Shown one piece after another: positions 7,661 to 33,899 of a stretch of DNA of 38,656 nucleotides. Location of the stretch: positions 1 to 38,656 of the forward strand of contig JACVTC010000361.1 of assembly GCA_016946835.1 (NCBI GenBank), written 5' to 3'. The notes beneath the pieces were generated by a model that saw only the letters and a program-made list of their open reading frames with translations, was not told the origin of the DNA and searched no databases. A program made the translations under genes and the position numbers. This stretch comes from Neocallimastix lanati (nom. inval.). Lineage: Eukaryota > Neocallimastigomycota > Neocallimastigomycetes > Neocallimastigales > Neocallimastigaceae. Positions within the stretch are counted from its first letter, which is position 1, and the number at the start of each line of letters is the position of its first letter.

Positions 7661-7868
7661 TTGTGTTACGGAACAAATAAAATAATTAAAATTATATATA
7701 ATTATTAAAGATTAAAAATTATTAATATTAGTGGAATTAAATAATTAATATTAAAATATTAAAATAATTATAAATCTAGTTATAATAAATTAGAAAATGT
7801 ATTAATTATTATCTTTATTTAATATTGTAATACTTAATAATATTTTAATAGTTTATTATATTTTATTA

Positions 7869-8100
7869 TTATATTTTATTATTAAATTTTTATTATTAAA
7901 TTTTTATTATTAAATTTTTATTATTAAATTTTTATTATTAAATTTTTATTATTAAATTTTTATTATTAAATTTTTATTATTAAATTTTTATTATTAAATT
8001 TTTATTATTAAATTTTTATTATTAAATTTTTATTATTAAATTTTATTATTAATTTATTATTAAATTTTTATTATTAAATTTTTATTATTAAATTTTTATT
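7869..8100 (+). repeat. 14-bp minisatellite inside solo LTR
   Basis: About 15 tandem copies of a 14-bp unit, ATTATTAAATTTTT, with one slightly shortened section near 8040-8055. It lies in the U3 part before the TATA box. Likely produced by slippage. Confidence 0.85.
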
Positions 8101-8129
8101 CTAATCCAATCAAATAACTATTCTAAATG

Positions 8130-8138
8130 TATAAAAAG
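8130..8138 (+). promoter_or_regulatory. Solo LTR TATA box
   Basis: TATAAAAAG is followed about 30 bases later by a CT-rich stretch (TTCTCTCTCTTTTTCTT), a plausible start region. If active, it would drive transcription toward E2. Confidence 0.45.
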
Positions 8139-8628
8139 AACAAAGTAGTACAATACTTTAGTTCTCTCTCTTTTTCTTACAACTTTATTATTATATTATT
8201 CTTTTGATATTTTCGAGTTTAAATGATAAATTTAGATAGTTAAATTAAAATAAAATTAGTTTAAATAATTAAATTTAAATAGTTTAAATAATAAATTAGT
8301 ATAGTTTAAATAATAAAGTTAGAATAGATTAAATAATAAAAATAAAATAGTTTATTTTAAATAAAGTTAGAATTAAAAATAATTTAAGTTTTGTATTAAG
8401 TGTTTAAAGGTTTTTAGTGTTTGGTTAATAGTTTTAATAATTATAGTTGTTAGTTAAATTATTTATATTAGGATATATTAATTTTGAATAATTTATTTTA
8501 GTTTAAATTGTTTAGTATTTAGATTTTTAAATTAGAATAATAGATTAGAATAATAGAGTAGAATTTAAAATTTTCTTTAATTATTAGAATATATTATTTT
8601 ATGATAAAAATTCTTCAGTTCTGTACCA

Positions 8629-8632
8629 ATTG
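8629..8632 (+). repeat. ATTG junction, solo LTR / E2
   Basis: Exactly four bases separate the CA end of the solo LTR from the TG start of E2. The same four bases follow E2, so this is E2's target-site duplication. Confidence 0.85.
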
Positions 8633-9472
8633 TGGTAAAGAACGAACATATAATGGATTATTAATTAGAATTTCAACTTACTTTAGAATCCATTATATTA
8701 TTCTTTACTTAATATTACTTTACTATATTTTCTATACTAAAATATTTTCTAAATATATTTATTTTTTTTATATTTTTATTAAAAGTTTCTAAAATATTAT
8801 CAATAATTTTATATTTTTATTATTAATATCAATATCTATAATTTAACCTTAAATTTTATTATTTTATTAAAGTGTTTATTATCAATATTAATATTTTATT
8901 TTTATTTTCAAATATATTATTATATTATTATTATATTGTATCAATATTAAACTTGTATTCTTTTTAGTATTTTATTTTATTTTTAAATTGATTATTTTAT
9001 ATTTTTATTCCCCACAAATAAAATCAAATCTTAATTGATTAATAATAAATATTAAATATATTATAGTTTTTAAATTTATTTTATATAAAATATAAGAATA
9101 TTATATTAACATTCTTGATTAAAATAACTTTATTTTTCTGTAAAATCTTTTTAAATTTTGTTTGTTACTTTTCGTATATATTAAATAATTTAGTTTTAGT
9201 ATATGAAAAATAATATAAAATTATGTAAACAAAATTTATTAAAATAAAAATACTTATGAATTAGTTAATTTAAATTAATATAAAATTTTAAGTAATTAGT
9301 AATAGTAAATATTTTTTTTTAAATATGATAATAAAATGTAGAAAGGCTTTACATATTTATTTTTTTTCAAAAAGTATAAATAAGTGAAGTTTTTCAATAA
9401 TTAAAATGTAGACAGAAAAAATATTAAAAATAAATAATTAAATAAAATTCTAATAAAACCCGAACCATAACA
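8633..9472 (+). repeat. E2 5' LTR (840 bp)
   Basis: Bounded by TGGTAAAG and ACCATAACA and repeated at 16834-17674. The first 76 bases form a strong terminal hairpin: GTAAAGAA 8635-8642 with TTCTTTAC 8701-8708, and ATATAATGGATT 8648-8659 with AATCCATTATAT 8687-8698. A TATAAATA box lies at 9375-9382. The last bases (CCATAA) can pair with TTATGG overlapping the primer site. Confidence 0.95.
9375..9382 (+). promoter_or_regulatory. E2 LTR TATA box
   Basis: TATAAATA lies 90 bases before the LTR end, followed by AATAAA-like hexamers, and is repeated at 17576-17583. The position and sequence match the E1 box. Confidence 0.55.
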
Positions 9473-9479
9473 TACTTTA

Positions 9480-9496
9480 TGGTGGAGATATCGGGG
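9480..9496 (+). promoter_or_regulatory. E2 tRNA primer-binding site
   Basis: TGGTGGAGATATCGGGG begins seven bases after the LTR and is identical to the E1 site, so both use the same primer tRNA. CCCGA in the LTR tail can pair with TCGGG at its end. Confidence 0.72.
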
Positions 9497-9553
9497 AATA
9501 TTAGAAAAATAAAATTTAATATTATTTATTAATTAAATTATTTAACAAAGCCT

Positions 9554-9716
9554 TGGATATAGATTTCCGGGCTAAGTTTAACCTACATAGTAATTGGGCT
9601 AGTAGGCTCTGGACTGCTGTATTTTATATTGAATACAGTAGCCGTGGTACCCGCGTGGCATGACGCCGTGAAGAGGCAAGCTGCACGTCAGACAGGGTAT
9701 ACTATCAGATTATCCA
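9554..9716 (+). ncRNA. Conserved leader RNA domain (E2 copy)
   Basis: Counterpart of 1196-1355. Stems at the aligned places use different bases: closing TGGATA 9554-9559 with TATCCA 9711-9716; CTGTATT about 9617-9623 with AATACAG 9632-9638; TACCC 9648-9652 with GGGTA 9695-9699; plus GCGT/ACGC around GGCATG. The unpaired parts are nearly the same as in E1. Here the domain begins only about 60 nt after the primer site. Confidence 0.72.
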
Positions 9717-9783
9717 TAAGTTTTGTTAAATAATAATAATTAATAATTTAATATTAATATTAATAATAATAAAAATTATAATA

Positions 9784-9828
<45 letters not shown>

Positions 9829-10006
9829 TTGGAAAACTTTAGTTTTTGTAGTAACTTTATTTAATTATAGATTATAAAATAAAAAATAATAATAAAAAAA
9901 AAAAAAAATAATAAAAAGTTAACAAATTTACGAAGTTAATATTCGAGTAAGACAGTGTTAGCTTGCAGGATATTAATTTCATAAACTCTTATTTACAATT
10001 TTGCAA

Positions 10007-10182
10007 GGTTTTGTAGATTGTAAACGCGAGTATCTCAAGGAACAAATCCTTGACAATTAGGCAAATACGCCCTAGAACTATAAAACCTTCACGCTGAAGG
10101 CAACTACACACTTCAACAGGTGATAGTTTGTTCACTCGCGCAGAAAATAAGAGGTGGGTCAGGTTCGATCCCTGATAAAACC
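10007..10182 (+). ncRNA. tRNA-like fold in E2 leader
   Basis: GGTTTTG (10007-10013) pairs with TAAAACC (10176-10182) as a 7-bp acceptor-like stem with one G-U. Directly next to its 3' strand is a T-arm: TCAGG, a 7-nt loop TTCGATC, CCTGA (10159-10175), which also matches the Pol III B-box (GGTTCGATCCC). TA follows the acceptor 5' strand as in tRNA, and CAAGG/CCTTG (10036-10051) sits where an anticodon arm would. The D-arm is poor, the anticodon loop lacks U33, and a roughly 105-nt insert (hairpin 10086-10100, stem 10025-10031/10134-10140) fills the variable region. It is not an ordinary tRNA gene. The rest of the leader around it is AT-rich with poly(A) at 9786-9826. Confidence 0.5.
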
Positions 10183-10199
10183 CTGGTCATTCTTGCGAA

Positions 10200-10405
10200 G
10201 TGACGTTAAAATATATAGTTTTTTTTATTTTTATTTTAGGCTTTTATAAATTTGTTCGCCTATTATTATTATTATTATTATTTTTGCAATAAAATAAAAA
10301 TATATATATATTTTTTTTTTTTCCTTTTATTAAAATAATAAATATTTCATTAATAAATTTTTTTTTAATAAATAATAAATTAAATTTTTCTTTAGTGTAG
10401 AACAA

Positions 10406-10450
<45 letters not shown>

Positions 10451-10491
10451 TTTTTTAACCAATAGTATTATCATAGATATAGATTTATATA

Positions 10492-10535
<44 letters not shown>

Positions 10536-11510
10536 TAATTAATGATAAATATTAAATTAATAAGCAAAAAAATTTTTTTTTTTTTGTAGTACAAATTTTT
10601 AATTTTTTTTTTAAATAAGAATAAATTTTATAAATAAATTTTTTTTTTATATTAATAATTCTAAATAATAAATTGTAATTTTTTTTTATGTTTATCAGTT
10701 TATTTTATTTTTTTTTAATATATACATGTACAATATATATATATAGAATATATAAAATTAGATTATTATTATTATTTTTCAAATAAGTGTATTATTTTTA
10801 TGATTTTATATAATTAAATTTTTTTTTTTTTCGAAATTTTTATAATTGAAATTTTTTTTTTGTGTGTTAAATTTTCTATTATTCGTTATATAATTAATTA
10901 AATTTTAATTAAAAAGAAAAATATAAATAAGCTGTCTTACAACTCTCTACGCGGGATAGTTGAACACCCACACATAATACTTTATTGTTTTGATCTTGTT
11001 GATACTGGGAAGGATACGTTATTATCTTCTTTATTACTAACAATAAGTTAGCCAAATTAAAAAGAATTTAATATTGCTACCTTCTTTTTATTAAGTTTCT
11101 TAATAATTAACAATCGACATTATCAACTTATCAATAAAGAGCTAAGGGGACTTATTGTAAGAAGGGTTAACAAGCTATATATTTGATGGTTCAACACTAT
11201 ATAGTTTGGCTTGTATTTTAACTTTTTATTTAATATTTCATTAAATGTTATAACAAAGAATTAATAGAATAATAAATATATACAAAAAAGAAATAAAAAT
11301 AAAAATAAATATACATTATTATTATTATTTAAGTATTTATACAATTTGCTTTATGTTATATTAATTATTTTAATAAAGGAAATAAATATATTAAATAAAA
11401 TTAAATAAAGAAGTTATTACTACAAATAAATTTAAAAAAAAAAGATTAAGATATACATATTTTGTGTATTAATGCTTAAGAGAATATAATAAACATTAAA
11501 ATTCATAATA
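10200..11510 (+). other. E2 leader middle: homopolymers, one structured patch
   Basis: I see no gene. Bases 10200-10920 are runs of A and T (A runs at 10412-10446 and about 10497-10530). A less AT-rich patch at about 10930-11215 has perfect arms: 11040-11047/11151-11158 (ACAATAAG/CTTATTGT), 11080-11086/11159-11165 (CCTTCTT/AAGAAGG), 11050-11056/11205-11211 (AGCCAAA/TTTGGCT) and hairpin 11175-11181/11198-11204. Several of these cross, so they cannot all form as simple hairpins. Confidence 0.4.
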
Positions 11511-11516
11511 AAAAGC

Positions 11517-11687
11517 TTCAGATTTTCAAATTGCGTTTTTGAGTCTGAATTTATTTTTTTTTTAGTTTCAGATTTTCGAAGGGTGTTTTCGAGTCTGAAT
11601 TAATTTATCAGATTTTCAGAGAGAGATTCTGAGTCTGAATTATTATTGGAATAAAGAATTGGATTGTCAGAGGGTTTTCTGAGTCCA
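11517..11687 (+). repeat. E2 leader array of four covarying hairpins
   Basis: Four units at 11517-11549, 11567-11599, 11608-11639 and 11660-11687. The first three have outer arms (T)TCAGA/TCTGA(A), and the inner pairs vary together: CAAA/TTTG, CGAA/TTCG, CAGA/TCTG. The fourth uses TGGA/TCCA outside and TCAGA/TCTGA inside. The array ends about 120 nt before gag, the same relative place as the E1 array, but the sequence differs. Confidence 0.75.
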
Positions 11688-11810
11688 TAATTATATTATT
11701 ATAAAACAAAGATAAATTTATTTTTTTTTTTTTGTTATTAAATATATTTTTAAAGTAAACATATTTTTAAATTGGATATCATAGCATTAATACCATTTTT
11801 AAATTTTCAA

Positions 11811-12704
11811 ATGGCTGAAAATAAAATCAATTTTAAAGAATTAAAAAAGGAATTAAAAGATATCGAGAAAATTTCAAAGGAAAATCTCGATATCAAATCT
11901 TGGGAATCAGAAATCCGATTATGGATAAAACTTGAGGAAGTTACTGATCCCAAAAAGATTTTTACCGCCTGCTTACTCACGTCTACTGGAGAGCCTCGCG
12001 AAGTTATCCAGGATTTAATTGAAAGTTACAGTACCGATTCTGAATCAGAAAGTGAGGACGAAGAAGAAGAAGAATCTGATTCAGAAGAAAAGAAAAAAGA
12101 TGAATATCCTTCCTTAAAGGAAATTGTAGAAGCAATAGAAACTTTTTATGGTCTTAAAGAAGACCAGAATATGTTACTTCGTGAGCTCCGTGCTTTAAGA
12201 ATTAAAAGAAATGAGCGAGTAAAAGACTTTAATACTCGTTTCCGATCCATATATTTGAAATTAGATAAGAAAAGAAAGAAGCGAGTCAGTGTTCTCGATT
12301 ATATTGATGCTCTTAGGAACAATGAAGAAGCTTGGAAAAAGGTCTCCCTTAAGGATGACATTTCTTTAAATCGGGCGTTTGACATTGCCGAAAAAGTTGA
12401 TAGAGTAATGAATTTGAGACCCTCAAAAGAGTACTCAACTGAAATTGTCAACCCAAGAATAAATATCAGGAATAATTATCAAAACAACAGAAAGGTAGTA
12501 AGAGAGAATTATGAAGTTAGAAGCCCAAAAAGAAATAAAGATTACGAATTGGAGGACTTAACAAAAAAAATGAAAAATCTTACCATTAAAGCCTGTTTTT
12601 ATTGTAGCGATCCAGGACATTTGCAGTATAATTGTCCTAAGTTAAATGCAATTATTCAAGAAAATAAGAAACGGTTATATAGTGGAAAATCTTTAAACCA
12701 CTAA
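11811..12704 (+). CDS. gag: E2 Gag polyprotein (297 aa)
   Basis: Structural protein expected to assemble the cytoplasmic virus-like particle and package element RNA. I start at the ATG at 11811 (MAENKINFKELKK); the open frame extends 13 codons upstream but from a TTG. Residues 1-65 and 100-200 look like a capsid-type helical region (IKSWESEIRLWIK, then RELRALRIKRNERVKDFN). They are separated by a very acidic Ser/Asp/Glu stretch at 74-97. A basic linker follows, then one zinc knuckle, C262-C265-H270-C275 (CFYCSDPGHLQYNC). The gene ends SLNH after the slippery site. Pol lies in the -1 frame and overlaps its last codons. Intact. Confidence 0.93.
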   Translation: MAENKINFKELKKELKDIEKISKENLDIKSWESEIRLWIKLEEVTDPKKIFTACLLTSTGEPREVIQDLIESYSTDSESESEDEEEEESDSEEKKKDEYPSLKEIVEAIETFYGLKEDQNMLLRELRALRIKRNERVKDFNTRFRSIYLKLDKKRKKRVSVLDYIDALRNNEEAWKKVSLKDDISLNRAFDIAEKVDRVMNLRPSKEYSTEIVNPRINIRNNYQNNRKVVRENYEVRSPKRNKDYELEDLTKKMKNLTIKACFYCSDPGHLQYNCPKLNAIIQENKKRLYSGKSLNH

Positions 12705-12744
12705 AAGGGAGAGGAAGCACTCCCTATAAAAATAAAATAGCTTC
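12692..12744 (+). promoter_or_regulatory. E2 -1 frameshift signal with pseudoknot
   Basis: T-TTA-AAC (12692-12698) is in gag phase, followed by CAC TAA. After an 8-nt spacer comes stem 1, GGGAG 12707-12711 with CTCCC 12720-12724, loop AGGAAGCA. Loop bases GAAGC (12714-12718) pair with GCTTC (12740-12744) across 15 nt. The -1 frame is open from 12683 through pol. A longer alternative partner for the whole loop, TGCTTCCT, occurs at 12805-12812. Confidence 0.85.
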
Positions 12745-15700
12745 ATTACAATACAAATCCATTCCTAGTAGTACAAATGATTATAATAAGGAAGAAAAAG
12801 AAGATGCTTCCTATACTAATGAAACTCACAAAGAATCCGATAATGAGAATGATGTAGAATTTATAGTTAGTGCGACAAAAAGGAAGTTGACGACTAACGA
12901 TGAAACTAGTGAAAATAATGAAAAGAGACAACGTAAAAGTCTCAAAGATAATCCTACCCCTATAACAACTCCTGCAATAAGAAAGATAAAAGAGAAGGAA
13001 ATAGAAAATAGAATAATTGTTAAAAATAAAAATCAACTACATCCTTCGATAATGGCGCAGCATAATATAAATATTGAGAAAGCCAAAGAAAAACAAATTC
13101 GGAATAAAGAAAGAGCTAACTTTGGAAATAACAAGGGAAAAAGGAAGGAAAGGGAGGATAATATTACTATAAGAGAAAAGCAAAGTCTGGATTCTTCAAA
13201 ACAAAGAAATAGCATCAGTACTACTAGTGATAAAATGCATCAACGATTAAATAAATTAATTGATAATGAAAACGATAAAATTATTAAAACAAAACAAATC
13301 AATGAAATGGAAGTTATTGAAGTTCCTGAAAAGCTTAATGACGAAGGTCATGAGAATATTACATTACAGAAGCTCATAGATTTTCAAGAGCCTAAAGAAA
13401 AAGCAACAATTAGTAGAACGCTTAGGAACATCAAGATGTGTAAGGATCAGGAAGAATATAATGTTTTACAAGATTTGAATGAAACCAAGTGTAATATTAG
13501 TTTCGGTCAGCTCCTCAATGTTTCTCCAAAAGTCAGAAGTCAAGTAAGTCAAGGATTAAAATTAGAAAAACCTGAAAAGAAAATAATAGGTGCATTAAAC
13601 AATACTATTGCTGCTGCTACCTTGGTAAATAATATTGATCACTCTTATATTAGCAAAAGTAAGGAAACCTCAGAAGAAGATATTGCCATGGTTGATGTAA
13701 CAGTAGATGAAATTCCTGGTAAAGCACTAATTGATTCTTGTAGCAATCTCAATGTTATCACAAAAAAATTTTATGAGAAATTACCTGGAAATTATGAAGA
13801 AGTAGGTATTAGTCGTGGAAGGATACGTTTAGCGACTAAGAATGATGAGTATTCAGAGGGAATCATTGTACGAATACCTGTTAAGATTAATGATTATAAA
13901 ATGATAGTAGATTTTCGTATAATTGATGATGATGACCCATTTTATGATTTGTTGATTAATTTTCAAACTCAAGTAGAACACAATCTTTTTATCCATCCTA
14001 TAAGATATAGTTTATGTCAATTTAATTCTCAAGGACTAATCGACGTTATAGCTCCTATTAATAATAATTTCCAAGAAGAAGAAAAATTAGTATGTATAGT
14101 AAGGAAAATACTTGAAGATGAAGACACAACTAATGAATTAAAGAAACTTGAAGGTCTATCCCCGCAAGAGTATATCCATGATGAAAAATTTTTAGCAAGT
14201 CTTTGTAAAGATTATAAAGATGTAATAGTAAAATTACTTGAAGAAAACTTGGACATTATAGCGACATCTTCTGAAGAATTAACCCCGTCAGACTTAGCAC
14301 CTCATAAGATTAACTTGAAAGCGAACGCAAAACCTGTTAAACAAAGATGTTACAGGGTAACCAAATTTAAATCGGATATTATTAAAGAAGAACTAATTAA
14401 ACTTATTAAGAAAAAGCTAGTTGTACCATCTTATTCAGAATGGTCTTCACCTGTTGTTGTGGTCCCAAAGGCTAATGGAAAATGGAGATTGTGTGTGGAC
14501 TACCGCAAGGTGAATGATCTAACCGAAAAAGACTCTTATGCCCTTCCATATATTGACGAGATATTTGACAGTTTAGATGGTGCCAAAATCTTTACTACTA
14601 TGGATCTATACTCAGGTTACCATCAAATCCTAATGGACGAAGAAAGTGTTGAAATAACCAGTTTTACAACCAAATTTGGCAACTACCAATTCAAAGTTAT
14701 GCCTTTCGGATTAACTGGAGCTCCGGCTACCTTCCAACGGGAAATGAATAGAATTTTATTTCCTTTAATCGGAAAATATGTTTTCAACTTTATTGATGAT
14801 ATACTTATATATTCAAAAACTGTCGAAGAACATATCCAACACATAAAGCAGGTATTAGCAATCTTCAAGGAACATAAATTAAAAATTAATATTGAAAAAT
14901 GTCACTTTATGCAAACGGAAGTTGAAGTTCTTGGTCACAAGATTTCTACTAAGGGTCTTAGTCCTCAAAATAGTAAAATTGAAGCAATTAAAGCCTGGAA
15001 AGAACCCACGAATATACATGAGTTAAGATCATTCTTAGGTGCTGTAGGATATTATAGGAACTTTATAAATGAATATGCTCAAACCTCAGCTCCTCTTTGT
15101 AAGCTATTAAGAAAAGGCGTAAAATATAAATGGAATAATGAACAAAAACAAAGTTTTACCAAATTAAAAGAAAAATTAATTAATGCTCCTATTTTAAAAT
15201 ATCCTGATTTTTCCAAAGAATTCATTATTCGAACAGATGCATCATATGAAGGTATTGGTGGAGTTTTATTGCAGAAAGACGAATCGGAAATAGAACACCC
15301 GATTCATTTCATTAGCCGTAGCTTAACCAAAGCAGAAAAGAATTATGGAATAACCGATTTGGAAGGAACGGCTTTATATTATTGTATTACTAAATTAAAA
15401 CCTTATATTATGGGAAGCCCCTTTAGAACCATAGTTTTTACAGATCACAAACCTCTACTAGGTTTATTTAATAATAAGGAACCGAATAATGCACGACAAA
15501 CAAGATGGTGTTTGACTGCAAGTATGCTAAAAGTGGATATTCGCTATGAGCAAGGTAAAAAGAATGTAGTAGCCGACGCTTTATCTAGAATGAAGAACGA
15601 TAAAGAACAAAAGGTATTAGCTATAAAAACGAATAAAGATGATGAAAATGATTCACTTTCTAAAGTAATTAAAGAATTTATTGAAGAAAAATTTACAAAG

Positions 15701-16810
15701 ATTGATGGTATAGATTATTTTATAGATGGAAATAATTATAGAAAACTTGTTACCGAAACAAATGAAAAACTAAAATTAATTCTCGAAGCACATCATGTTG
15801 GCCATGAAGGTTATTATAAAACATATCAAAGACTTAGAAAAAGTTACTACTGGAATGATATGGTCAACGATATAAAACGGATAATTTCAAAATGCGAAAA
15901 ATGTCAGTTAAATCGCCCTCAGCCATATCCAGAACCAACCGAAAACATTCCAACAGAAGTTGAAGGCCCTTTTACTCATCTTGGACTTGATATTATTGGT
16001 CCCTTAATAAAAACTGGTAATAAAAACCAATATATCATTGTTGCGGTGGATTATTTCACAAAGTGGGTGGAGGCTGAACCTACTGAAAATATTACATCTA
16101 AGGACATCATTAAGTTTTTAATAAATGTTTTCGCTAGACATGGAGTTCCTCAAGTCATTACAACGGATAATGGCGTTCAATTCACATCGGATATGACTAA
16201 AATATTCCTGGACTTATATGATGTTTACGTAAAATTTACCACTACCTATCACCCAGAAAGTAATGGATTGGTTGAAAATAGGAATAAAGAAATTGGTAAA
16301 TTATTGAGATTACTTGGTGAAGAAAATAAAGACTGGGATGAGGTATTACCTTCAGCCTTGTGGGCCCTTAGAACTACAAAGAATTCTGTAACCAAACATT
16401 CTAGCTTCGAATTAGTTTATGGTCGTGAGGATCAACAGCCTTTCGACATTGCTGCTAGACCTACACAAGGAGTGAATAAATCTTCAGATGAAATTCTTTT
16501 AGAAAAATTTATCTCACATTATAGGTGGACCATGGAAGCAGCTGAAAATGTAAAGAACGCAAGTAAATATTGGGCCAATCGAAGGGAAGAAAAAAATAGC
16601 ATGAAAAATTCCAAAAACATAAGAATCGGTGATTTAGTTCTTGTTCGAAATTTTAGTCGTTCTAAATTAGAACCTTATTTTGTCGGTCCTTTAAAAGTAA
16701 TAAAAAAACAATTTAATACCGTAACACTTGCGGACCCAAATACTATGATTCAAATGAATCGTAATGTTCATTTGAAAAATATAGTAAAGTATAACTCAGC
16801 TATAGATTAG
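12698..16810 (+). CDS. pol: E2 Pol (as Gag-Pol): PR, RT, RNase H, integrase
   Basis: Made as a -1 frameshift extension of Gag; 1370 codons follow the shift point. There is no in-frame ATG near the start, which supports frameshifting. Catalytic codons by position: protease Asp 13733 in ALIDSCSN (Cys replaces the usual Gly); RT FIDD at 14789-14800 (catalytic Asp pair 14795-14800), Phe for the usual Tyr; RNase H Asp 15236, Glu 15362, Asp 15443, Asp 15575; integrase HHCC finger (about 15790-15905) and catalytic Asp 15989, Asp 16166, Glu 16274, with 35 residues between the last two (DD35E). The C-terminal PYFVGPLKVI matches a GPY/F module. No chromodomain. The region before the protease is Lys/Glu-rich with KSLKDNP. 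Uninterrupted, so probably functional except for the open question of the protease. Confidence 0.95.
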   Translation, partial: PLKGRGSTPYKNKIASLQYKSIPSSTNDYNKEEKEDASYTNETHKESDNENDVEFIVSATKRKLTTNDETSENNEKRQRKSLKDNPTPITTPAIRKIKEKEIENRIIVKNKNQLHPSIMAQHNINIEKAKEKQIRNKERANFGNNKGKRKEREDNITIREKQSLDSSKQRNSISTTSDKMHQRLNKLIDNENDKIIKTKQINEMEVIEVPEKLNDEGHENITLQKLIDFQEPKEKATISRTLRNIKMCKDQEEYNVLQDLNETKCNISFGQLLNVSPKVRSQVSQGLKLEKPEKKIIGALNNTIAAATLVNNIDHSYISKSKETSEEDIAMVDVTVDEIPGKALIDSCSNLNVITKKFYEKLPGNYEEVGISRGRIRLATKNDEYSEGIIVRIPVKINDYKMIVDFRIIDDDDPFYDLLINFQTQVEHNLFIHPIRYSLCQFNSQGLIDVIAPINNNFQEEEKLVCIVRKILEDEDTTNELKKLEGLSPQEYIHDEKFLASLCKDYKDVIVKLLEENLDIIATSSEELTPSDLAPHKINLKANAKPVKQRCYRVTKFKSDIIKEELIKLIKKKLVVPSYSEWSSPVVVVPKANGKWRLCVDYRKVNDLTEKDSYALPYIDEIFDSLDGAKIFTTMDLYSGYHQILMDEESVEITSFTTKFGNYQFKVMPFGLTGAPATFQREMNRILFPLIGKYVFNFIDDILIYSKTVEEHIQHIKQVLAIFKEHKLKINIEKCHFMQTEVEVLGHKISTKGLSPQNSKIEAIKAWKEPTNIHELRSFLGAVGYYRNFINEYAQTSAPLCKLLRKGVKYKWNNEQKQSFTKLKEKLINAPILKYPDFSKEFIIRTDASYEGIGGVLLQKDESEIEHPIHFISRSLTKAEKNYGITDLEGTALYYCITKLKPYIMGSPFRTIVFTDHKPLLGLFNNKEPNNARQTRWCLTASMLKVDIRYEQGKKNVVADALSRMKNDKEQKVLAIKTNKDDENDSLSKVIKEFIEEKFTKIDGIDYFIDGNNYRKLVTETNEKLKLILEAHHVGHEGYYKTYQRLRKSYYWNDMVNDIKRIISKCEKCQLNRPQPYPEPTENIPTEVEGPFTHLGLDIIGPLIKTGNKNQYIIVAVDYFTKWVEAEPTENITSKDIIKFLINVFARHGVPQVITTDNGVQFTSDMTKIFLDLYDVYVKFTTTYHPESNGLVENRNKEIGKLLRLLGEENKDWDEVLPSALWALRTTKNSVTKHSSFELVYGREDQQPFDIAARPTQGVNKSSDEILLEKFISHYRWTMEAAENVKNASKYWANRREEKNSMKNSKNIRIGDLVLVRNFSRSKLEPYFVGPLKVIKKQFNTVTLADPNTMIQMNRNVHLKNIVKYNSAID

Positions 16811-23500: not shown

Positions 23501-26024
23501 TTTTCAAAGGGAGATGAACAGAATATTTTTTGATTTAATCGGAGTATGTGTTTTTATTTACATAGATGACTTAGTTATTTATTCTCCTTCAACACATCAA
23601 AGACCTAGAAAAAGTATTCCTCATTCTTGCTAATAATGGATTAAAAGTGAATTTTGAAAAATGTGATTTCTTTAAAGAAGAAGTTGAGCTCCTTGGTCAT
23701 ACTCTTTCTACTAAGGGTATAAAACCTATGAATTCTAAAATAAAAGTTATTGCTAATTGGTTACCTCCTTCTAATTTAAAACAGTTACGTTCTTTCTTAG
23801 GGGCAATTGGATATTACCGGAAATTCATTAGCCATTTTGCCCAAATTGCTAAACCTTTATATGATTTAACAAAAAAGAATGTTCCTTTTGTTTGGTCTAC
23901 CGAATCTAATAATGCATTTGAATTTTTAAAAATTCGTCTTATTAATGCACCTATATTGTCACCTCCAAATTTTGATAAACCATTTATTGTTCGTTCAGAT
24001 GCATCTAAATCAGGAATTGGCGGGGTACTACTTCAGTTAGACGATGACAACATTGAGAAGCCATTATATTATGAAAGTAGGACACTTTCCAATTCTGAAA
24101 TCAATTATAGCATTACAGAACTTGAGGGGCTTGCCGCATTTTACTGTGTCATGAAATTTAAACCTTTTCTCACTGGTAATAGTTTTGAGACAATTCTTTA
24201 TACCGATCATAAGCCTTTAGTTTACATATTTAAAAATAAAGAACCTTCTTCAGCAAGGCATGTCAAATGGATAACTGAGTTCAGTATTTTAAAAATTAAA
24301 GTGTTATATGAAGAGGGGAGGAGGAATGTAGTTGCTGATGCACTATCTAGATTACATTCTAACAATGAAAAATATATAATCAAAAATATAAAAAATGATG
24401 ATAAACATATAAAAAAATAAAAATAAAAGAAATAATATAAAAAATTATAATAAAGATGTATTCAACCAAGTTATAAATAATGAAATTCAAAATTGTGAAA
24501 TTAAAAATAATGAAGAAATTAGAAATAAGAAAAATACTAAAATTAATAAAATAAAAGAGTTAGTGGATGAAATTAAGATCAATAGTAATAATGAAAATTA
24601 CAAAATGGAATATGAGGAAATTAAAAATAATGTAAATAACATTAATAAGTTTAATAAGTTTAATAATAAATTACATAATAATAATAGTGAAAATAATGGA
24701 GTGGAAAATAAATTGAATGTGAATTATATGGTATTTCAAACTGAAGAAAATAATAAACATAGTTTTAATAATAATGATAATAATAATAATAATATTAATC
24801 ATGTTAATACTAATAATAATGATATTGATGATAGTACTGAAATACTAAATGATTTCTATAAAAAAATAATAAACCAGAAATTTGTATTAATTGATGGAGT
24901 TCAGTATTATAAAGATAATAATGAATTAAGAAAAGTAATATTTAATGATAATGAAAAATGGGAACTTATTAGTAAAGCTCATTGTTTAGGACATGAAGGT
25001 AACTTTAAAACCTACCATCGTTTGAAAAGGAACTATTATTGGATAGGAATGAATAAGGATATCAGATTATTTATTAAATCTTGTCATGTATGTCAATTAT
25101 GTAAACCACAACCACCGAATGTATTTACAGAAGATTTAGCTACACCCCCAGGTCTACCTTTTACTCGGGTAGGATTGGATTTAGTTGGACCCTTATACGA
25201 ATCTTTCAGAGGTAATAAATATATAATAGTACTTGTAGATTATTTAACAAAATGGGTGGAAGCTGAAGCATTAGCCAAAACAGAATCAGAAGATGTCATT
25301 AGATTTTTAAATAATATATTTTCAAGACACGGGATTCCAGAGATATTAATTACTGATAATGGCCCGCAATTCATATCTGATAAAACAAAAGCTTTCCTAG
25401 ATTTAAATGATGTCTATGTACATTATATTAGTACTTATCATCCTGCTTCTAACGGAGAAGTTGAAAACAGGAATAGAGAAATAGTCAAATATATTAGAAT
25501 TCTTAAAAGCCAATTTAAAGAATTAAGTAAACAAAATCAAGAATGGGATGATATTTTACCTAGTGCACTTTGGGCTTTAAGAACAACAAAAAATGAAGTT
25601 ACTAAATTTAGTAGTTTCGAATTACTCTATGGTAGGAAAGACTTACAACCATTTGAATTAGCAATTAATATTGACAAAAGATTTCCTGAAGAATCAGAAG
25701 AAGAATATTTTGTTCGAAAATTTATTAATCACCATAATTGGATTTCTGAAGCAATCAAAAATATTGAAACTGCAAATGAATTATGGAAAGATAGGAGAAG
25801 ACAGATTAAAAGATTAAGAAGTGAATTCAAACCAGGAGACCTAGTTTTAGTTAGAAATTTCAATCGAAGGAAACTAGACCCTTATTATATCGGACCATTA
25901 AAAATAGTTAAACAGCAATTTAATACTGTCACAGTATGTGATCCTTATACGAACGAAATTGCAGAGAGAAACATTCATCTAAAAAATGTAATTCCATATA
26001 TTAGTAATTTCCTAAATTATAATC

Positions 26025-26029
<5 letters not shown>
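20556..26029 (+). pseudogene. pol: E3 pol, two frame breaks (PR-RT-RNase H-integrase)
   Basis: The pieces are the -1 extension of gag to 23633, 23647-24420, and a frame running to 26029. The first 650 or so codons are Asn/Asp-rich and low in complexity, much longer than in E2. Protease motif FLDSCAS has Cys for Gly, with a normal ILIGID later. RT has YIDD, then loses frame about 10 codons on; comparison with E2 suggests loss of some seven bases. RNase H shows SDAS, LEGLA, TDHKP and ADALSR. The second break is in an A run at about 24408-24420, followed by an Asn-rich spacer. Integrase: HHCC finger, catalytic Asp 25178, Asp 25355 and Glu 25463 (35 residues between the last two), end PYYIGPLKIV. 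No chromodomain. Confidence 0.88.
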
Positions 26030-26072
<43 letters not shown>

Positions 26073-26201
26073 ATGATATATATATAAAAAAAAAAAAAAA
26101 ATTTTGATATATATAAAAAATATAAAAAAAATAAATATAAAAAAAATATTATAAAATATATAATAGTATTATTAGTTTAATAAATATTTTAATATGCTTA
26201 T
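26030..26201 (+). other. E3 3' untranslated A-rich stretch
   Basis: After the pol stop come two poly(A) runs (about 26029-26070 and 26087-26100) and AT-only sequence. Nothing else is seen. Confidence 0.7.
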
Positions 26202-26241
26202 AGACTTCAAGGGACGAAGTCTAAGCTAAGTGGGGGCATCT
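26202..26241 (+). promoter_or_regulatory. E3 hairpin and polypurine tract
   Basis: AGACTTC 26202-26208 pairs with GAAGTCT 26216-26222 around AAGGGAC. Seven bases later GTGGGGGCATCT (26230-26241) abuts the LTR. E4 has the same kind of hairpin (loop AAGAGAC) just before its tract. Confidence 0.72.
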
Positions 26242-26860
26242 TGATGCATGTCCAGTAAAAATAATAGAAAATAATAGAAAAATTATTTAGAAAAATTATT
26301 AATATAAATATTTATTAAAAATTAATTTTATATAATGAATCTTAAAATATATTATTAATATATTATTAAAGATAATTTATTATTATTAATTATTAAAATA
26401 TTAAATTAAATAATAATATTAAAAATATTAAAAGAATTGTTGATAATATAGTAAAATTAGTTATATTAATTATAACGGAGATTGAATGTTTAATTAAATT
26501 GATGTTAATATTAAAATAATTTTTAAATAATGTTAAACAAGATGAATTAATAGTTATAAGTAAAAAGTTATGAATATTTATATTTATTAATTAATTTTAG
26601 TGTTTCGATAAATAAAATTTATAAAATTAGTAAAAATATAATTATGAAAATAATTTATAAATAAATATTTTCTTTTTTTTTAAGGAATAATAATAAAACA
26701 TGTATTTTTTTTTTTTTATGATAAAATATAATAAATAAAATAATAAAAGATAAATAAATAAAAAGTAAATATAATTATTGTAATATAATATTCTTGGAGT
26801 AATTCCCTTTTGCACAAACGCCCAACTAACATATACGGTATTTAATAAAATATCGTATCA
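26242..26860 (+). repeat. E3 3' LTR (619 bp)
   Basis: Copy of 17679-18297, same length and no difference found by eye, including the T runs. Confidence 0.95.
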
Positions 26861-26864
26861 ATTG
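26861..26864 (+). repeat. ATTG junction, E3 / E4
   Basis: Four bases between CA of E3 and TG of E4, shared as target duplication by both. Confidence 0.88.
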
Positions 26865-27543
26865 TGATAAATAACCAAATTATAAATTAAGAAAAATCAA
26901 TAAAATGGAATAATAACCCTCTTAATTAGTTATTGATAATTATAAAATAATATTTTAATAAAAATAAATTAAAAGATTTAAAATTATTAAATAAATATTA
27001 TTTTAATTTAAAGAACAATGTATTTTATATTAAATTATTCTTTTATTTTACTTTAACGATTTTAAATTAAATCTCAGTTTAAATTGATATTAATATTAAT
27101 TAAAAAGAAACTTATTAATAATAACAAAATTGTTTATTTTATCTTAAAAGTGTTTACTTAAAATAATTATATAGTTTTATTTTAAATAATTTAAACTTAA
27201 AAGAAAAATATAAAAACATGTAAATATTTCTTTAAAAATAAAAAAAATCAGAATTCAAGAATTAAAAATTTTAAAATTTAAGTTTTAATAAATTATTTTC
27301 TTTTATTCTCATTTATTTTAAATACTTTTTATTAAGAATATAAATATTCAAAATAATAAAAAGTACAATTTTATATTGATAAATAAAGTTTTATTATAAA
27401 AAAAAAAAACAAATATTCTTTTCTTATTTTAAACTGTAGTGTTTTAATTAACATTTTTGTGTTAATAACTACCTTTTTAATTGACAAATTATTATCACTT
27501 TTAGAAGTAAATTCTAAATTAAGATAATAATCAACATTTGTCA
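26865..27543 (+). repeat. E4 5' LTR (679 bp)
   Basis: Starts TGATAAATAACC, ends CATTTGTCA; repeated at 33217-33895. The U3 tip can fold: AATAAC and AATTAAGA pair with TCTTAATT and GTTATT. TATAAAAA at 27209-27216. The tail also folds: TTGACAAAT with ATTTGTCAA and TATTATC with GATAATA. Confidence 0.95.
27209..27216 (+). promoter_or_regulatory. E4 LTR TATA box
   Basis: TATAAAAA, present also at 33561-33568, about 330 bases before the LTR end. Confidence 0.4.
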
Positions 27544-27546
27544 AAC

Positions 27547-27563
27547 TGGTGGAGAATCCTAAC
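27547..27563 (+). promoter_or_regulatory. E4 tRNA primer-binding site
   Basis: TGGTGGAGAATCCTAAC begins three bases after the LTR. The first 14 bases match E3, so both probably use related tRNAs. Confidence 0.68.
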
Positions 27564-27567
27564 TAAG

Positions 27568-27667
27568 CCCGGTGAGGTAAGTAGAATTCTTTATTCTATA
27601 AAAAAAAAAAAAATTAAAACCCAATGAGGTAATTAAAGTTATTCTTATGTAAAACCCAATGAGGTAA
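27568..27667 (+). repeat. E4 leader: three CCC-RR-TGAGGTAA motifs
   Basis: CCCGGTGAGGTAA at 27568-27580 and CCCAATGAGGTAA at 27620-27632 and 27655-27667. Each could form a tiny CC/GG loop. The first runs into GTAAGT, giving a good splice-donor match (AG|GTAAGT, 27575-27582). These may be the E4 version of the repeated leader motifs. Confidence 0.65.
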
Positions 27668-27859
27668 AATACTTAAGTGAAAATTAATAATAAATAAAAG
27701 AAAACCATTAAATCATAGTTATAAAATATTTAGCAGAAATTAATTAAAATAGATTAATGTAATAATTAATTTAAAATTATTGATATAATTATTTTAAAAA
27801 AAATTATAAGTTACACAATTAATAAAAATATAGTAAATTAAATTATAATTAATTATTAT

Positions 27860-27925
<66 letters not shown>

Positions 27926-28119
27926 ACCATTATAGAACTAGTAATAATATATAATTTTTAGATATTAAAAATTAATCTTAGTTTATATATAAAACAAAGA
28001 AAAGATAATATATATTAAATGAAGAAAATAATAAAATAAGTTAAATAATATAAATAAGTTAAATAATATAAATATAAAATAAGTAAAATAATACAAATAA
28101 TATAAGTAAATAATATATA

Positions 28120-28164
<45 letters not shown>

Positions 28165-28222
28165 CATATATAGTGATACAATAAAGTAGCATATATAAGT
28201 AAAATAAAATAAAATAAAAATA

Positions 28223-28252
<30 letters not shown>
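27668..28252 (+). other. E4 leader, AT-only stretch (no gene)
   Basis: A and TA runs (about 27866-27924, 28121-28160, 28227-28252) and simple AT repeats up to the gag ATG, which directly follows a run of about 25 A. An open frame on the other strand is low-complexity only. Confidence 0.75.
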
Positions 28253-28256
<4 letters not shown>

Positions 28257-29203
28257 AAAATCAAATAAAATTAATAACGTTCAACAGACTTCCCATTCTC
28301 GGAAAAACAAAAGTTGCATTCGATGAATGGAAGTTTGCATTTGAACATTGGTGTCTTACTTTTAAAGTAAGCGAAGAAAGAGAGAAAATAGATTATTTAA
28401 TTGCAATAACAGATGGTGTTGCAAGGACAATAGTTTATAATTCTCTAAATAAAAAAATACCAGATGAATATGATACTATATTAACAAATTTAGCAAAGTA
28501 TTATAAGAAAACTGCGTCAAAGAATTCCAGACTTCTGGAACTTTCATCTATTACTATACGTAAAGATGAAACAATTACAGACTTTGACATACGATTCTCT
28601 GAATTGCAAAACCAAATAAGTAAAACTGTGGTAATCTCAGATGTTATCGTAACATCTTATTATATAAATGCTTTTCGTAATTGGAATAAAATATACGAAA
28701 GCTTAATGGAGGAAGAACCAACAACCTTAGAAGAAGCTCAGAAAATCACTTCGAAGAAAGAAAAGATTATGAACCTTATTAAAGAAAATAAAAATAAAAA
28801 TCCTTCAAAAGAGAAAACTACTAGCCATAATTCTACAAAAAGGCAATCCGAAAGTTCTTATATTAATTTTTATTCTCCAAATAATAAAAATAAGGAAGGA
28901 AATAAAAATAACGCTAATAGTTCAACGTATGGATATCAAAATAAAAATTTTTATAATAATAAATCCTATAATAGTAACTACAATAATAAGTACAATAATT
29001 ATTATCAATATAAAGAACAATTAAATAAAAATACTAATAATAATAGAAATAATGCAAAACAAAGCATAAATGATGAAGAAATAAAAGAAATAACACAAAA
29101 GCTCTCCGACTTAAAAATTAATTTTTGCGTAAATTGTATGAGGATCGGACATAATGAAGTTGACTGCCCAGAATCTGAACAAAATGATGAACGTTTAAAA
29201 TAA
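28253..29203 (+). CDS. gag: E4 Gag polyprotein (316 aa)
   Basis: Starts at ATG 28253 directly after a poly(A) run. Residues 1-190 form a helical Gag region (FDEWKFAFEHWCLTF, LAKYYKKTASKNSRLLELSS, RKDETITDFDIRFSELQNQ), similar in layout to retrotransposon Gag domains. Residues about 190-270 are rich in Asn, Lys, Tyr and Ser. One zinc knuckle at C292-C295-H300-C305 (CVNCMRIGHNEVDC) lies close to the C-terminus. Ends ERLK with TTA AAA TAA as the slippery end. Expected to form particles and bind element RNA. Intact. Confidence 0.92.
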
Positions 29204-29243
29204 ATAATGGGAGTACGCAATCTCCCAATATAAATAAAATTGC
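29194..29243 (+). promoter_or_regulatory. E4 -1 frameshift signal with pseudoknot
   Basis: T-TTA-AAA (29194-29200), gag stop, 8-nt spacer (TAAATAAT), stem 1 GGGAG 29209-29213 with CTCCC 29222-29226, loop TACGCAAT. Loop bases GCAAT (29217-29221) pair with ATTGC (29239-29243) 12 nt downstream. Compared with GAAGC/GCTTC in E1 and E2, stem 2 has changed on both sides. Pol is open in the -1 frame. Confidence 0.83.
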
Positions 29244-32200
29244 AAATACAATAAATTCCAATAATAACAATAACATATACACAATTAATGCCGCACAAAA
29301 AAAAAAGATTACAACTTCAAATCAATTGAATAAAAACAAAATAAAATTATCAAATAAATCAATTATTAAACCTTCAATATTAAACCAACCCAAAATTAAA
29401 ATAGTAAAACAACAAAAAAGAGAAATTAGAGACAAAAGAAGAAGAGCCATGGATATAGATGATAATGAAGAAGAATACTCCAACCAGAATGAAAATAACG
29501 AAACTAATAATAATCAAGAAATAGAAAATAAAAATATTCTTGAGGAAAGTATAAATCTTAATAATAATCATAGTTATGATGGTATTATTAATAATAATGA
29601 CAGTAATGGAATTAATAATAATAATGATAATAATACAAATAATACAAATAATACAAATAATACAAATAATACCAATAATACCAATAATACAAATAATACA
29701 AATAATACAAATAATAAAAATAATAAAAATAATAAAAATAATTATGATAATAAGAATAATGATGATAATAAAAATGATAATAGTAATAAAGATAATGAAA
29801 ATTATAAAAATAAAAATGAAATAAAAACAAATAATGTAATTGATTTAGATATGGATAATTATAATGAAAATAAGCCAACAAAATTTATTACTAAAAGGAA
29901 TATGACTGAAATAAAATTATTAGATAAAGAACAAAAGTTTAATATTATTGAAGAAATCAAATCAATCTATCCAAAAATTAATTTAGCACAGCTATTAGCA
30001 GCAAGTCCAGCAATAAGAAAAGAATTGGAACAGGGTCTAAAGCCAAGAGTAGAAAGAATTTTATGTTCAATAGCGAATTTTAATATACCGATTATCATTG
30101 GGGAAATAAATAACCAACCTTTTAAAGTATTATTTGATACTGGTGCAAATATTAATATAATTACCTTAGAAAGTTTTAATAAAACTGAATTAAATAACAT
30201 AGTAAAAACTGACGAAACAATTACCATTGCTCTAGCTGATGGAACATTAATACCAACTCAATATTATACAACTATAAAATTAAAAATAAGTGAAAATTTA
30301 ACCATTAATGAAAAATTTTATATTATAGACTATACAAATAATTATTATGATTTAATTATAGGAAGAAGTATACAAAAGAAATATAGATTATTAATTGACC
30401 CAGATGATGATTTTATTTACAAGAAGACTGATAAAGGTTTAATTAAAGTTAGCGAAATTATTAATAGTAAACAGGACATACCTTTAATTAATTCAATTAT
30501 TATTTCAAACGAAGAAGAAAATGAATTTATGAATACTCTTAACGAAATAATTAACGAAGTACCAATTGAAATAAAGGAAGAATTTAAAATTTTAATATTA
30601 AATAATCAAAAGTGTATGGCAACTTCTCTTTCTCAATTAACAACTGCAAATTTGCATCCTCATAATATAATAACAACTACCAATGTACCAATAAAATTAA
30701 AACCGTACAAATTATCAAAGGAACATTCAAATATTCTTAAGGAGGAAATAATATCATTATTAAACAAAGGACTAATAGAACCTTCCCATTCACCATGGGC
30801 ATTCCCAGTATTACTTGTTCAAAAGAAAAATGAAAAATGGAGAATGTGTATTGATTATAGAAAACTGAATAATATTACAATAAAAGATTCTTATGCCTTG
30901 CCTCTCATTGACGAATTAGTAACATCAGTAAAGGGTGCAAAAATATTTTCCGCATTGGATTTATTTTCTGGTTACCACCAAATACCAATGAATAAGAAAG
31001 ATATCGAGAAAACATCATTCACCACAAAATTTGGAAATTACAATTTTTTAGTAATGCCTTTTGGACTCACAAATGCGCCAGCGACATTCCAACGAGAAAT
31101 GAATCGGATATTGCTACCATTAATAGGTGAATGCTTATTTATCTATATTGACGATATCGTGGTTTATTCTAAGAATTTAAAAGAGCACATAAATCACTTA
31201 AAATTAGTATTCGATATATTCTCAAAATATAATTTATCAATAAATTTACAAAAGTGTCAATTTTTTAAAGAAAAAGTCGAAGTTTTAGGACATGTACTAA
31301 CAGCTGATGGATTAAAAACTGCACCATCAAAAGTCCAAAGTATTGCCTTATGGGAAAACCCAAAGAATATTTCTCAATTAAGATCATTTCTTGGTTTGGT
31401 AAGTTATTACAGAAAATTTATAAAAAACTTTTCTATTAGAGCTAGTCCACTATTCAAACTTTTAAAGAAAAATAATAATTACAATTGGAATAATGATTGT
31501 ACCTTAGCATTTGAAGACTTAAGAAATTGTCTCTTGAAAGATCCAATACTTGCCTTTCCTGATTTCAATAGGCCATTCATTATTAGAACAGATGCTTCTA
31601 TCAAAGGAATCGGGGGTGTACTCTTGCAACGGGAGGAAGATAAATTGGAACATCCAATTTATTGTGTTAGCAGATCCTTAAAGCCTGCAGAAGAAAATTA
31701 CTCTATAACCGATCTGGAAGGCTTAGCAGTTATTTATAGTTTAAAGAAATTCCGCGAATATATTGTAAGTAATAAACAAATAACAACAGTAATTACTGAC
31801 CATAAACCACTTTTAGGTTTTTTTGAAAATAGCATACCAACCAAAAATAGACATTTTAGATGGATAGAAGAATTTAATAAATATAAAATAAAATTAATAT
31901 ACGAAAAAGAAAAGTCTAATATATTCGCAGATGCTTTATCTAGATTACCATCAAAACAAAATGAAAGTGTTACAAATTGTATTAATGCTATTTTAAGTGA
32001 TATCAACCCAAGAGATTTAGACTTACCAGAAGGTATAAGAAAATATTTTAGCAAAAATTATCAAATAATAGATAACACTTTATATTATAAAAAAAACGAT
32101 TTATATTTAAAAGTCATTTATAGAGATGAAGAAAGATATTATTGATAGAGCTCATAACGTCGGCCATGAAGGTGCTGAAAAGACTACTTTAAGAATTTTA

Positions 32201-33226
32201 GAATCATACTACTGGCCTGGAATATGGAATGATGTTAGAATGTGGGTTCGATCATGCCACAAGTGTCAACTATTTAGACCCAAATCACTACCACAAAATA
32301 CAGAAGATCATATTACACCAATTGAAAAACCTTTTACCAGAGTAGGACTAGATATTATCGGACCGTTACCAGCCACAAAACAAGGTAATAAATATATAAT
32401 TACTTTAGTTGATTACTTTACTAAATGGCCCGAAGCCAAAGCTATACCAGATATTAAATCAGAACAGGTAATTAAATTTTTAACAGAAGTAATAGCAAGA
32501 CATGGACCACTAGAAATAATCATAACAGATAATGGATCCTCATTCATTTCGGATATTACAAAAATGATGATCGATTTATATGGATCATGGGTACATTTTA
32601 CTGCACCACACCATCCACAATCAAATGGAATGATAGAAAACAGAAATAGAGAGATTGGAAAAATATTACGATTATTAATAACGGAAGAACAGGAATGGGA
32701 CGAATGTCTTCCATCAGTCTTATGGGCACTTAGAACAACAAAAAGTTCAAAAACTAAATTCAGCAGTTTTGAACTATTATATGGAAGAAGGGATACTTGG
32801 CCAATGGAAATCATGTTTCCGGATATTCACCAAGAAGAAGGAGAAACAGAAGACGAATTTAATTTTCGAAGATTTTTAAGACATTACAAATGGGTAAAAG
32901 AAGCAATAGGATATTCAGAATATGCTAATAAATATTGGGAACACAGAATAGGTTTCAATAAAGCCTTAAAGAAACAATACAAAATTGGAGACTATGTGAT
33001 GATAAGATTAATTAACAGGACAAAGTTAGACCCTTACTTTTACGGACCATTTAGAGTTGTAAAAGAACCAAAATTCAACACAGTAGTATTAGAAGACCCA
33101 CAAACTGGAAAATTACTTGCAAGAAACGTACATATTAAAAATGTTTATCCATATACAATAAGAGAAGAAAATATTACAACTTCAAGAGACGAAGTTCAAT
33201 CTGATGGTGGAGGAATTGATAAATAA
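29200..33226 (+). pseudogene. pol: E4 pol, one frame break before integrase
   Basis: Read as a -1 extension of gag to 32145, then in another frame from about 32126 to 33226. The N-terminal part has PSILNQP, shared in form with E1, then an (NNT)n tract from ACAAATAAT-type repeats (about 29636-29710). Protease is canonical: FDTGANIN and YDLIIG. RT has YIDD; RNase H TDAS, LEGLA, TDHKP, ADALSR. The frame changes by one base between RNase H and integrase. Integrase piece: His10, His14, Cys44, Cys47; catalytic Asp76, Asp135, Glu171 (DD35E spacing); PYFYGPFRVV end. Its last codons contain the polypurine tract and the stop lies 10 bases inside the 3' LTR. No chromodomain. Confidence 0.9.
33178..33216 (+). 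promoter_or_regulatory. E4 hairpin and polypurine tract inside pol
   Basis: AACTTC 33178-33183 pairs with GAAGTT 33191-33196 around AAGAGAC. TGGTGGAGGAAT (33205-33216) abuts the LTR. Both are translated as the end of integrase. Confidence 0.68.
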
Positions 33227-33895
33227 CCAAATTATAAATTAAGAAAAATCAATAAAATGGAATAATAACCCTCTTAATTAGTTATTGATAATTATAAAAT
33301 AATATTTTAATAAAAATAAATTAAAAGATTTAAAATTATTAAATAAATATTATTTTAATTTAAAGAACAATGTATTTTATATTAAATTATTCTTTTATTT
33401 TACTTTAACGATTTTAAATTAAATCTCAGTTTAAACTGATATTAATATTAATTAAAAAGAAACTTATTAATAATAACAAAATTGTTTATTTTATCTTAAA
33501 AGTGTTTACTTAAAATAATTATATAGTTTTATTTTAAATAATTTAAACTTAAAAGAAAAATATAAAAACTTGTAAATATTTCTTTAAAAATAAAAAAAAA
33601 TCAGAATTCAAGAATTAAAAATTTAAAATTTAAGTTTTAATAAATTATTTTCTTTTATTCTCATTTATTTTAAATACTTTTTATTAAGAATATAAATATT
33701 CAAAATAATAAAAAGTACAATTTTATATTGATAAATAAAGTTTTATTATAAAAAAAAAAAACAAATATTCTTTTCTTATTTTAAACTGTAGTGTTTTAAT
33801 TAACATTTTTGTGTTAATAACTACCCTTTTAATTGACAAATTATTATCACTTTTAGAAGTAAATTCTAAATTAAGATAATAATCAACATTTGTCA
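33217..33895 (+). repeat. E4 3' LTR (679 bp)
   Basis: Copy of 26865-27543 with about five small differences (for example T/C near 33437, A/T near 33570, T/C near 33827, and single-base length changes in A and T runs). Confidence 0.95.
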
Positions 33896-33899
33896 ATTG
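33896..33899 (+). repeat. ATTG junction, E4 / right flank
   Basis: Right-hand copy of the target duplication; the sequence after it (TAAAAGGTAAG) does not start with TG and is taken as the original target flank. Confidence 0.85.

Follow-up and report, generated by a model that had tools for sequence, protein, structure and literature searches.

Why should long terminal repeat (LTR) retrotransposons of unrelated sequence insert one after another into the same four bases, and in the same direction? The question is raised by a 38,656-nucleotide stretch of the Neocallimastix lanati genome, positions 1 to 38,656 of contig JACVTC010000361.1 (the window; C292 in our numbering), an AT-rich piece of a 199 Mb assembly in 762 contigs (GCA_016946835.1). 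The window holds a ladder of head-to-tail LTR elements: the Ty3/gypsy elements E1 to E4 and a solo LTR, joined through ATTG or, at the first joint, TTG. The best explanation, which we hold at a probability of about 0.92, is that a nearby gene sets the landing site, that each insertion restores that site, and that the stack grows toward the gene.

The joints were read directly, and all are exactly as the first-pass annotation gave them. On the plus strand, where all of the elements lie, E1 (1–7660) ends in a 3′ LTR of 849 bp (6812–7660) and continues as ...TTAACA-TTG-TGTTACGG into the solo LTR (7664–8628, 965 bp); its 5′ LTR is cut by the contig start, the true start being at C45:476554. The TTG at 7661–7663 is the first three bases of E1's right target-site duplication (TSD), TTGT; through a one-base slip, the solo LTR supplies the last T from its own start. 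The solo LTR joins E2 (8633–17674) as ...TACCA-ATTG-TGGTAAAG (TSD at 8629–8632), E2 joins E3 (17679–26860) as ...TAACA-ATTG-TGATGCAT (17675–17678), E3 joins E4 (26865–33895) as ...TATCA-ATTG-TGATAAAT (26861–26864), and E4 ends as ...TGTCA-ATTG-TAAAAGG (33896–33899). Beyond E4 lies a further solo LTR, F (33898–34456, 559 bp), whose initial TG doubles as the end of E4's ATTG, the AT coming from an older TSD; F is followed by its own 5-bp TSD, CAAAT, at 34457–34461. All-against-all blastn of seven LTRs (those of E1 to E4, the solo LTR, F and the repeat E5 described below; E ≤ 1e-3, low-complexity filter on) gave no cross-match, in keeping with the earlier claim that the LTRs are unrelated and that the ladder is not a segmental duplication. 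Four of the joints were also sought in other contigs, the E2-ATTG-E3 joint being left out. E1-TTG-solo and solo-ATTG-E2 recur in contig C45 with 0 mismatches over 221 and 301 bases, and E3-ATTG-E4 and E4-ATTG-F recur in contig C754 with 0 mismatches over 161 and 321 bases. This agreement fits the window assembly but may come from the same reads, because the window overlaps both contigs.

The same arrangement is found elsewhere in the genome with other bases at the joints. The 3′ end of the E2 LTR occurs 340 times, and we read the first 70 of these occurrences with their flanks; 32 E2 copies outside the window had both ends readable. Identical 4-mers stand on both sides of 20 of the 32, whereas 100,000 permutations averaged 1.8 and never exceeded 10, so the identity is not due to chance; the last three bases agree in 25 of the 32 (permuted mean 4.6). 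The duplicated bases are diverse (TTTT, TAAT, AAAA, GTTG, ACTG and others), and ATTG is absent from the right-hand 4-mers of all 32 copies. Each locus thus has its own duplicated bases, mostly common to the neighbors in a stack. The last 14 bases of the E2 LTR are followed by four bases and then TG at 78 places, with ATTG as the four bases in only three, the window included, and many of the sequences that follow these joints recur as LTR starts of other families. ATTG is local to this stack, and stacking is general. The first-pass annotation had suggested strong target choice, perhaps for CAATTG at existing LTR ends, and had held that random target duplications and orientations among other copies would speak against it. 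The duplications of the tabulated E2 copies do vary in this way, which speaks against a sequence preference, but their orientations are not random. A preference for LTR ends as such finds no support either: 7 of the 32 E2 copies have matching TSDs yet no CA, and hence no LTR end, at 2–6 bp on the left.

Target choice through a bound factor, as for Ty3 at genes transcribed by RNA polymerase III (Pol III), had been suggested as well, and the flanking sequences favor it: LTR tips of the E2, E3, F and E4-like families lie 11–18 bp upstream of transfer RNA (tRNA) genes. A CA, taken as the putative end of an LTR, stands 3, 4 or 5 bp from 30 of 38 E2 left ends (6, 19 and 5 ends, respectively). At six others, a B box pointing away from E2 lies 75 or 77 bp off, two of these (L034, L039) probably representing one duplicated event; the last two ends have neither feature. 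No B box was found in 52 E2 right flanks of 120 bp. Together with one F and one E1 locus, the six E2 loci make eight anchors with a B box at 70–77 bp from the element. A minus-strand tRNA-like gene lies 13 bp from the TSD at L032 and 11 bp from it at L074, and L023 presents a complete chain of minus-strand tRNA-Cys, 13 bp, an LTR, CTTT and E2, with CTTT also preceding the LTR.

In the converse test, we took the 160 bp upstream of all 36 exact tRNA-Ala(TGC) copies and of 24 of 80 tRNA-Cys copies (every third place, first 24) and compared them with a library of LTR tips from E2's neighbors and the window, 40 from the U3 (unique 3′) side and 35 from the U5 (unique 5′) side. The genes were located by exact tRNA patterns; a genome search with Rfam scored only 63 of 9278 candidates, nearly all with one score and length. 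U3 tips match 31 of the 60 stretches and tips of the U5 set match 6, for 36 distinct stretches with L126 in both groups, and all same-strand tip matches lie 11–18 bp from a tRNA gene. Tips stand directly beside 26 of the 36 tRNA-Ala genes (21 U3 tips at 11–18 bp, 5 of the U5 set at 15–16 bp), and one further tRNA-Ala stretch has a U3 match 15 bp beyond a second tRNA-like gene. The tRNA-Cys stretches contain four matches at 13–15 bp and five at 14–18 bp upstream of an intervening tRNA-Ser, which is present at 11 of the 24 genes. Tips of E2, E3 and F match with 0 mismatches and E4-like tips with 2–3. When every match on either strand is kept, the only additions are the second hairpin arm of a tip at L088, which is the sole match on the other strand, and neighboring offsets in L126 and L130.

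Some tRNA genes are arranged in ways of their own. Five tRNA-Ala copies lie ∼3.9–4.3 kb apart at C268:712157–728063, four of them with the same LTR tip 18 bp upstream; here, the gene appears to have been amplified along with its LTR. In the ∼230 kb of C555:170732–399007 there are dozens of 74-nt tRNA hits, almost identical in score and confined to the plus strand; a hit on C78 with the same score was called tRNA-Arg(TCT) in L067. The exact tRNA-Gly pattern was found at 69 places.

The window's own anchor is visible in C45, which extends to the left of E1. There, a minus-strand tRNA-like sequence has A- and B-box-like stretches; the B box, read as its reverse complement, begins 73 bp to the left of E1. 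The stretch before the E1 5′ LTR reads ...TTTTACAAATTGT and the flank ends CAAATTGT, giving a left TSD of TTGT. This TTGT had been expected from the ladder before the C45 flank was read, and was then found; the CAAA to its left, which matches the TSD of F, was recognized only after reading. Repeated insertion at one site and in one direction by unrelated families, as the first-pass annotation had it, is supported, and the site adjoins tRNA-like sequence. We can also discard the idea that the TTG joint is an ATTG that lost one A through sequencing error, as TTGT precedes E1 in C45. The anchor (L148, C45 476250–476554) resembles a sequence with A and B boxes at C1 3867600–3867783 (L147, L143), and at both loci an LTR element stands at the distance typical of Ty3. 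The C1 repeat adjoins a second copy of F, with the B box at 70 bp; TGAAA flanks this F copy on both sides, and the DNA further out is similar by eye. The anchor therefore looks like a tRNA-derived repeat, possibly of the short interspersed element (SINE) kind, serving as a landing pad. A match of L148 to the bantam microRNA in Rfam was below the cut-off and was taken as chance.

Orientation is biased. For E2, E3 and E4, whose direction is known from the primer-binding site (PBS) and polypurine tract, all 16 tip matches have U3 toward the gene (up to 4 mismatches in 20 bases were allowed, so that some of the matches are to related families), and the same holds at all six E2 B-box anchors. Several unrelated families are thus strongly, though not absolutely, biased to run away from the gene. 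A set of hairpin-tipped elements (TGTAAGAAT.., TGTAATAATT.., TGTAAAGAATT..; L016, L018, L044, L051, L061, L089, L091, L097, L104) uses the same site upstream of tRNA genes, apparently in both directions.

How might such a ladder be built? We propose that the gene fixes the site by distance, the target bases being whatever lies there. Each insertion would duplicate the target and restore the bases beside the gene, where the next element, of any family, could land again. Newcomers would then enter between the gene and the older elements, mostly with the U3 end toward the gene and usually at the same four bases, and the stack would grow toward the gene and record its own history. In the window, the order would be gene (minus strand), CAAA, TTGT, E1, solo LTR, E2, E3, E4 and F, with the oldest rightmost. 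F would have duplicated CAAAT; E4 would then have used its AT together with the first TG of F; ATTG would have served again for E3, for E2 and for the element that is now the solo LTR; and E1 would have slipped one base onto TTGT, leaving CAAA and TTGT at its left. Slips of 1–3 bp have carried E4 into the older tip of F, E1 into that of the solo LTR and, at L060, E2 into one resembling F, and the TTG joint and the composition of E4's ATTG arise because insertions slip by 1–2 bp. Order can also be read from six E2 copies whose left neighbor stands 3 bp away. In all six, those bases repeat the final three of the right TSD of E2, the pattern that a later neighbor slipped by one base would leave; for five the opposite order is ruled out, and for one (L061) it is possible. 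Divergence within LTR pairs runs from 0 substitutions in E2 (8633–9472 and 16834–17674, with 1 indel) and 0 in E3 (17679–18297 and 26242–26860) to 3 in E4 (26865–27543 and 33217–33895) and 8 in E5. The E1 pair has none in the first 247 bases, and 1 substitution and 9 gap columns in the remainder at the contig start.

Other explanations were weighed against these data. Integrases might recognize existing LTR ends, or CAATTG, and insert at the border of LTR and TSD, as the CA found at 3–5 bp in 30 of 38 E2 left ends, mostly recognizable LTR ends, and the TG...CA with short inverted ends shared by LTR tips would allow. Yet the same families sit 11–18 bp from tRNA genes, six of the eight E2 left ends that lack an LTR keep a fixed distance from a B box, insertions slip 1–3 bp into the older tip, and ATTG is rare among the TSDs (3/78, 0/32); we regard this account as very improbable. 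Still less credit goes to a concatemer, in which unintegrated complementary DNAs were joined end to end, in the manner of 2-LTR circles, before insertion. Head-to-tail elements with four bases between CA and TG are just the geometry of joined unprocessed ends, but the bases beside the LTRs differ by family (TACTTTA, AAAA and AAC before the PBS; CT, CT and AT before the 3′ LTR), so the joints would differ too, and end-joining of these bases does not yield ATTG. Moreover, what stands at the joint is the outer duplication, which is different at different loci, and LTR-pair divergence varies between elements.

An assembly artefact or segmental duplication deserves about as little weight as the concatemer. 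The window does begin inside an LTR, C45 and C754 end inside E2 and E3, and some other loci are clearly duplicated; against this stand the four joints that recur without mismatch in C45 and C754, the many loci that share the architecture with other TSDs and families, and LTRs that have no blastn similarity to one another.

Several observations weigh against the gene-set landing site that we prefer, or against parts of it. The anchor L148 was not called a tRNA by ARAGORN or Rfam. The loci read are partly non-independent, with L083/L096, L092/L109, L094/L107, L097/L112, L099–L102 and L034/L039 apparently duplicated. TSDs are unmatched in 7 of the 32 E2 copies, including L023/L024, and it is the far TSD that is mismatched in the L023 copy. 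No library tip stands directly beside 10 of 36 tRNA-Ala and 20 of 24 tRNA-Cys genes, although five of the latter have a tip behind the intervening tRNA-Ser. As to orientation, there is one E1-like U5 match at a tRNA gene (L115), a weak one with 4 mismatches; five of the six stretches matched by the U5 set involve hairpin-tipped families to which no direction could be assigned; L132 resembles, by eye, the U5 end of the E4 family; and the left neighbors at L016/L018 carry, reversed, a tip that points the opposite way at L027/L041. Very few substitutions underlie the age gradient in the window, and the LTRs of E1 do not bear out its place as the youngest element, which would be a misfit unless the differences are contig-end errors.

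The elements themselves are conventional. E1 to E4 all have RVT_1, RT_RNaseH and Integrase_H2C2/rve in this order by Pfam (over separate frames in E1, E3 and E4), and this domain order with paired LTRs places them in Ty3/gypsy (Metaviridae). The PBSs of E1 (509–525) and E2 (9480–9496), both on the plus strand, are exact 17-base complements of the tRNA-Ala(TGC) 3′ end plus CCA; both elements would be primed by tRNA-Ala, the genes for which are also among the targets. The E2 polyprotein has 53 relatives; of those that bear a label, the closest come from Orpsp1_1, which we take to be Orpinomyces (identities of 74% across 55% of the query and of 59% across 29%), in keeping with an anaerobic gut fungus as the probable host. 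The E2 integrase aligns to Ty3 (7q5b_A) over residues 1110–1441 with E 5e-20; the match stops at residue 1441 of 1547, and the E2 frame ends 8 residues later, which leaves no room for a Ty3-type C-terminal chromodomain. E4 aligns to Ty3 residue 1425 with 43 residues left, and E3 gave no match to Ty3 at 1e-10. Pfam gave no chromodomain hit in E1 to E4 at E 0.001, a search in which Ty3's own chromodomain is hard to see. A structural model of the E2 integrase has a mean predicted local distance difference test score of 53 and is good only near both ends; the C-terminal barrel scored better, with few residues after it. The tips at 11–18 bp place the elements in the narrow zone upstream of tRNA genes that characterizes Pol III-targeting LTR elements. 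The position of the insertions, their small slips and their TSDs suggest an integrase that, like that of Ty3, is guided by the Pol III initiation complex. Judging from position, the integrase would dock on the initiation factor TFIIIB, and the anchor would be transcribed.

Insertion upstream of tRNA genes is known in kind, and the orientation bias and long ladders appear to be what is distinctive here. Ty3 inserts ∼15 bp upstream of the mature tRNA (PMC5006619), in both orientations (PMC5911963), and the C-terminal chromodomain of its integrase contacts TFIIIB (PMC8632968). The present elements resemble Ty3 in the order of reverse transcriptase, RNase H and integrase, in the distance upstream of tRNA and in integrase alignment, and differ in their orientation bias and, for E2, in the chromodomain. 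Tj1 of Schizosaccharomyces japonicus, also of the Ty3/gypsy group, lands immediately upstream of Pol III genes and always in the same orientation; the authors of that work were aware of no other wild-type LTR element whose orientation is fixed (PMC4600332). Tj1 runs in the gene's own direction, whereas the elements described here mostly run away from it, with a 4-bp TSD (5 bp for F), in several families and in stacks. DGLT-A of Dictyostelium is a Ty3/gypsy element ∼15 bp upstream of tRNA genes and, like E2, lacks an integrase chromodomain; its copies are few, 20 in D. discoideum (PMC5006619), and lie in either orientation (PMC5911963). A table footnote on dictyostelids mentions other elements at the same tRNA gene, ahead of the older one, and the sections consulted describe no TSD ladders for DGLT-A (PMC5006619). 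Dada elements target small RNA genes, and tandem insertions of two families have been figured (PMC3706591); unlike the present LTR elements, these are DNA transposons that insert inside the gene with a 6–7 bp TSD. Adjacent or nested Ty1 copies occur in yeast (PMC4022208). The comparison also drew on PMC7175516 and PMC10886601. In a limited literature survey covering gut-fungus transposons, Pol III targeting and tandem insertions at tRNA genes, we recognized neither TSD-sharing ladders nor Pol III targeting in anaerobic gut fungi.

It is about an even bet that many unrelated families share a Pol III landing pad and an orientation rule (U3 toward the gene) that is opposite to that of Tj1 and works without the chromodomain of Ty3. 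If they do, a different docking surface on the Pol III complex is implied, the stacks are ordered chronologies of insertion, and tRNA-derived repeats act as extra landing pads. Ladders beside a fixed anchor would give relative dates of transposition without a molecular clock, and the outward bias would lend itself to studying how an integrase senses which way a Pol III complex points, a question open in Ty3, which takes both orientations, and in Tj1, which follows the gene. Rebuilding of a used target by every insertion may also be how a genome of this kind accommodates so many elements.

The right end of the window holds one more repeat. Rfam gave no matches on the window. In hairpin-like sequence immediately right of F lies E5 (34516–37912), an LTR-type repeat with LTRs at 34516 to ∼35137 and 37317 to ∼37912. 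Its LTR pair has indels in addition to the substitutions given above, TTAAA stands on both sides by eye, and its interior has a single minus-strand frame of 167 codons.

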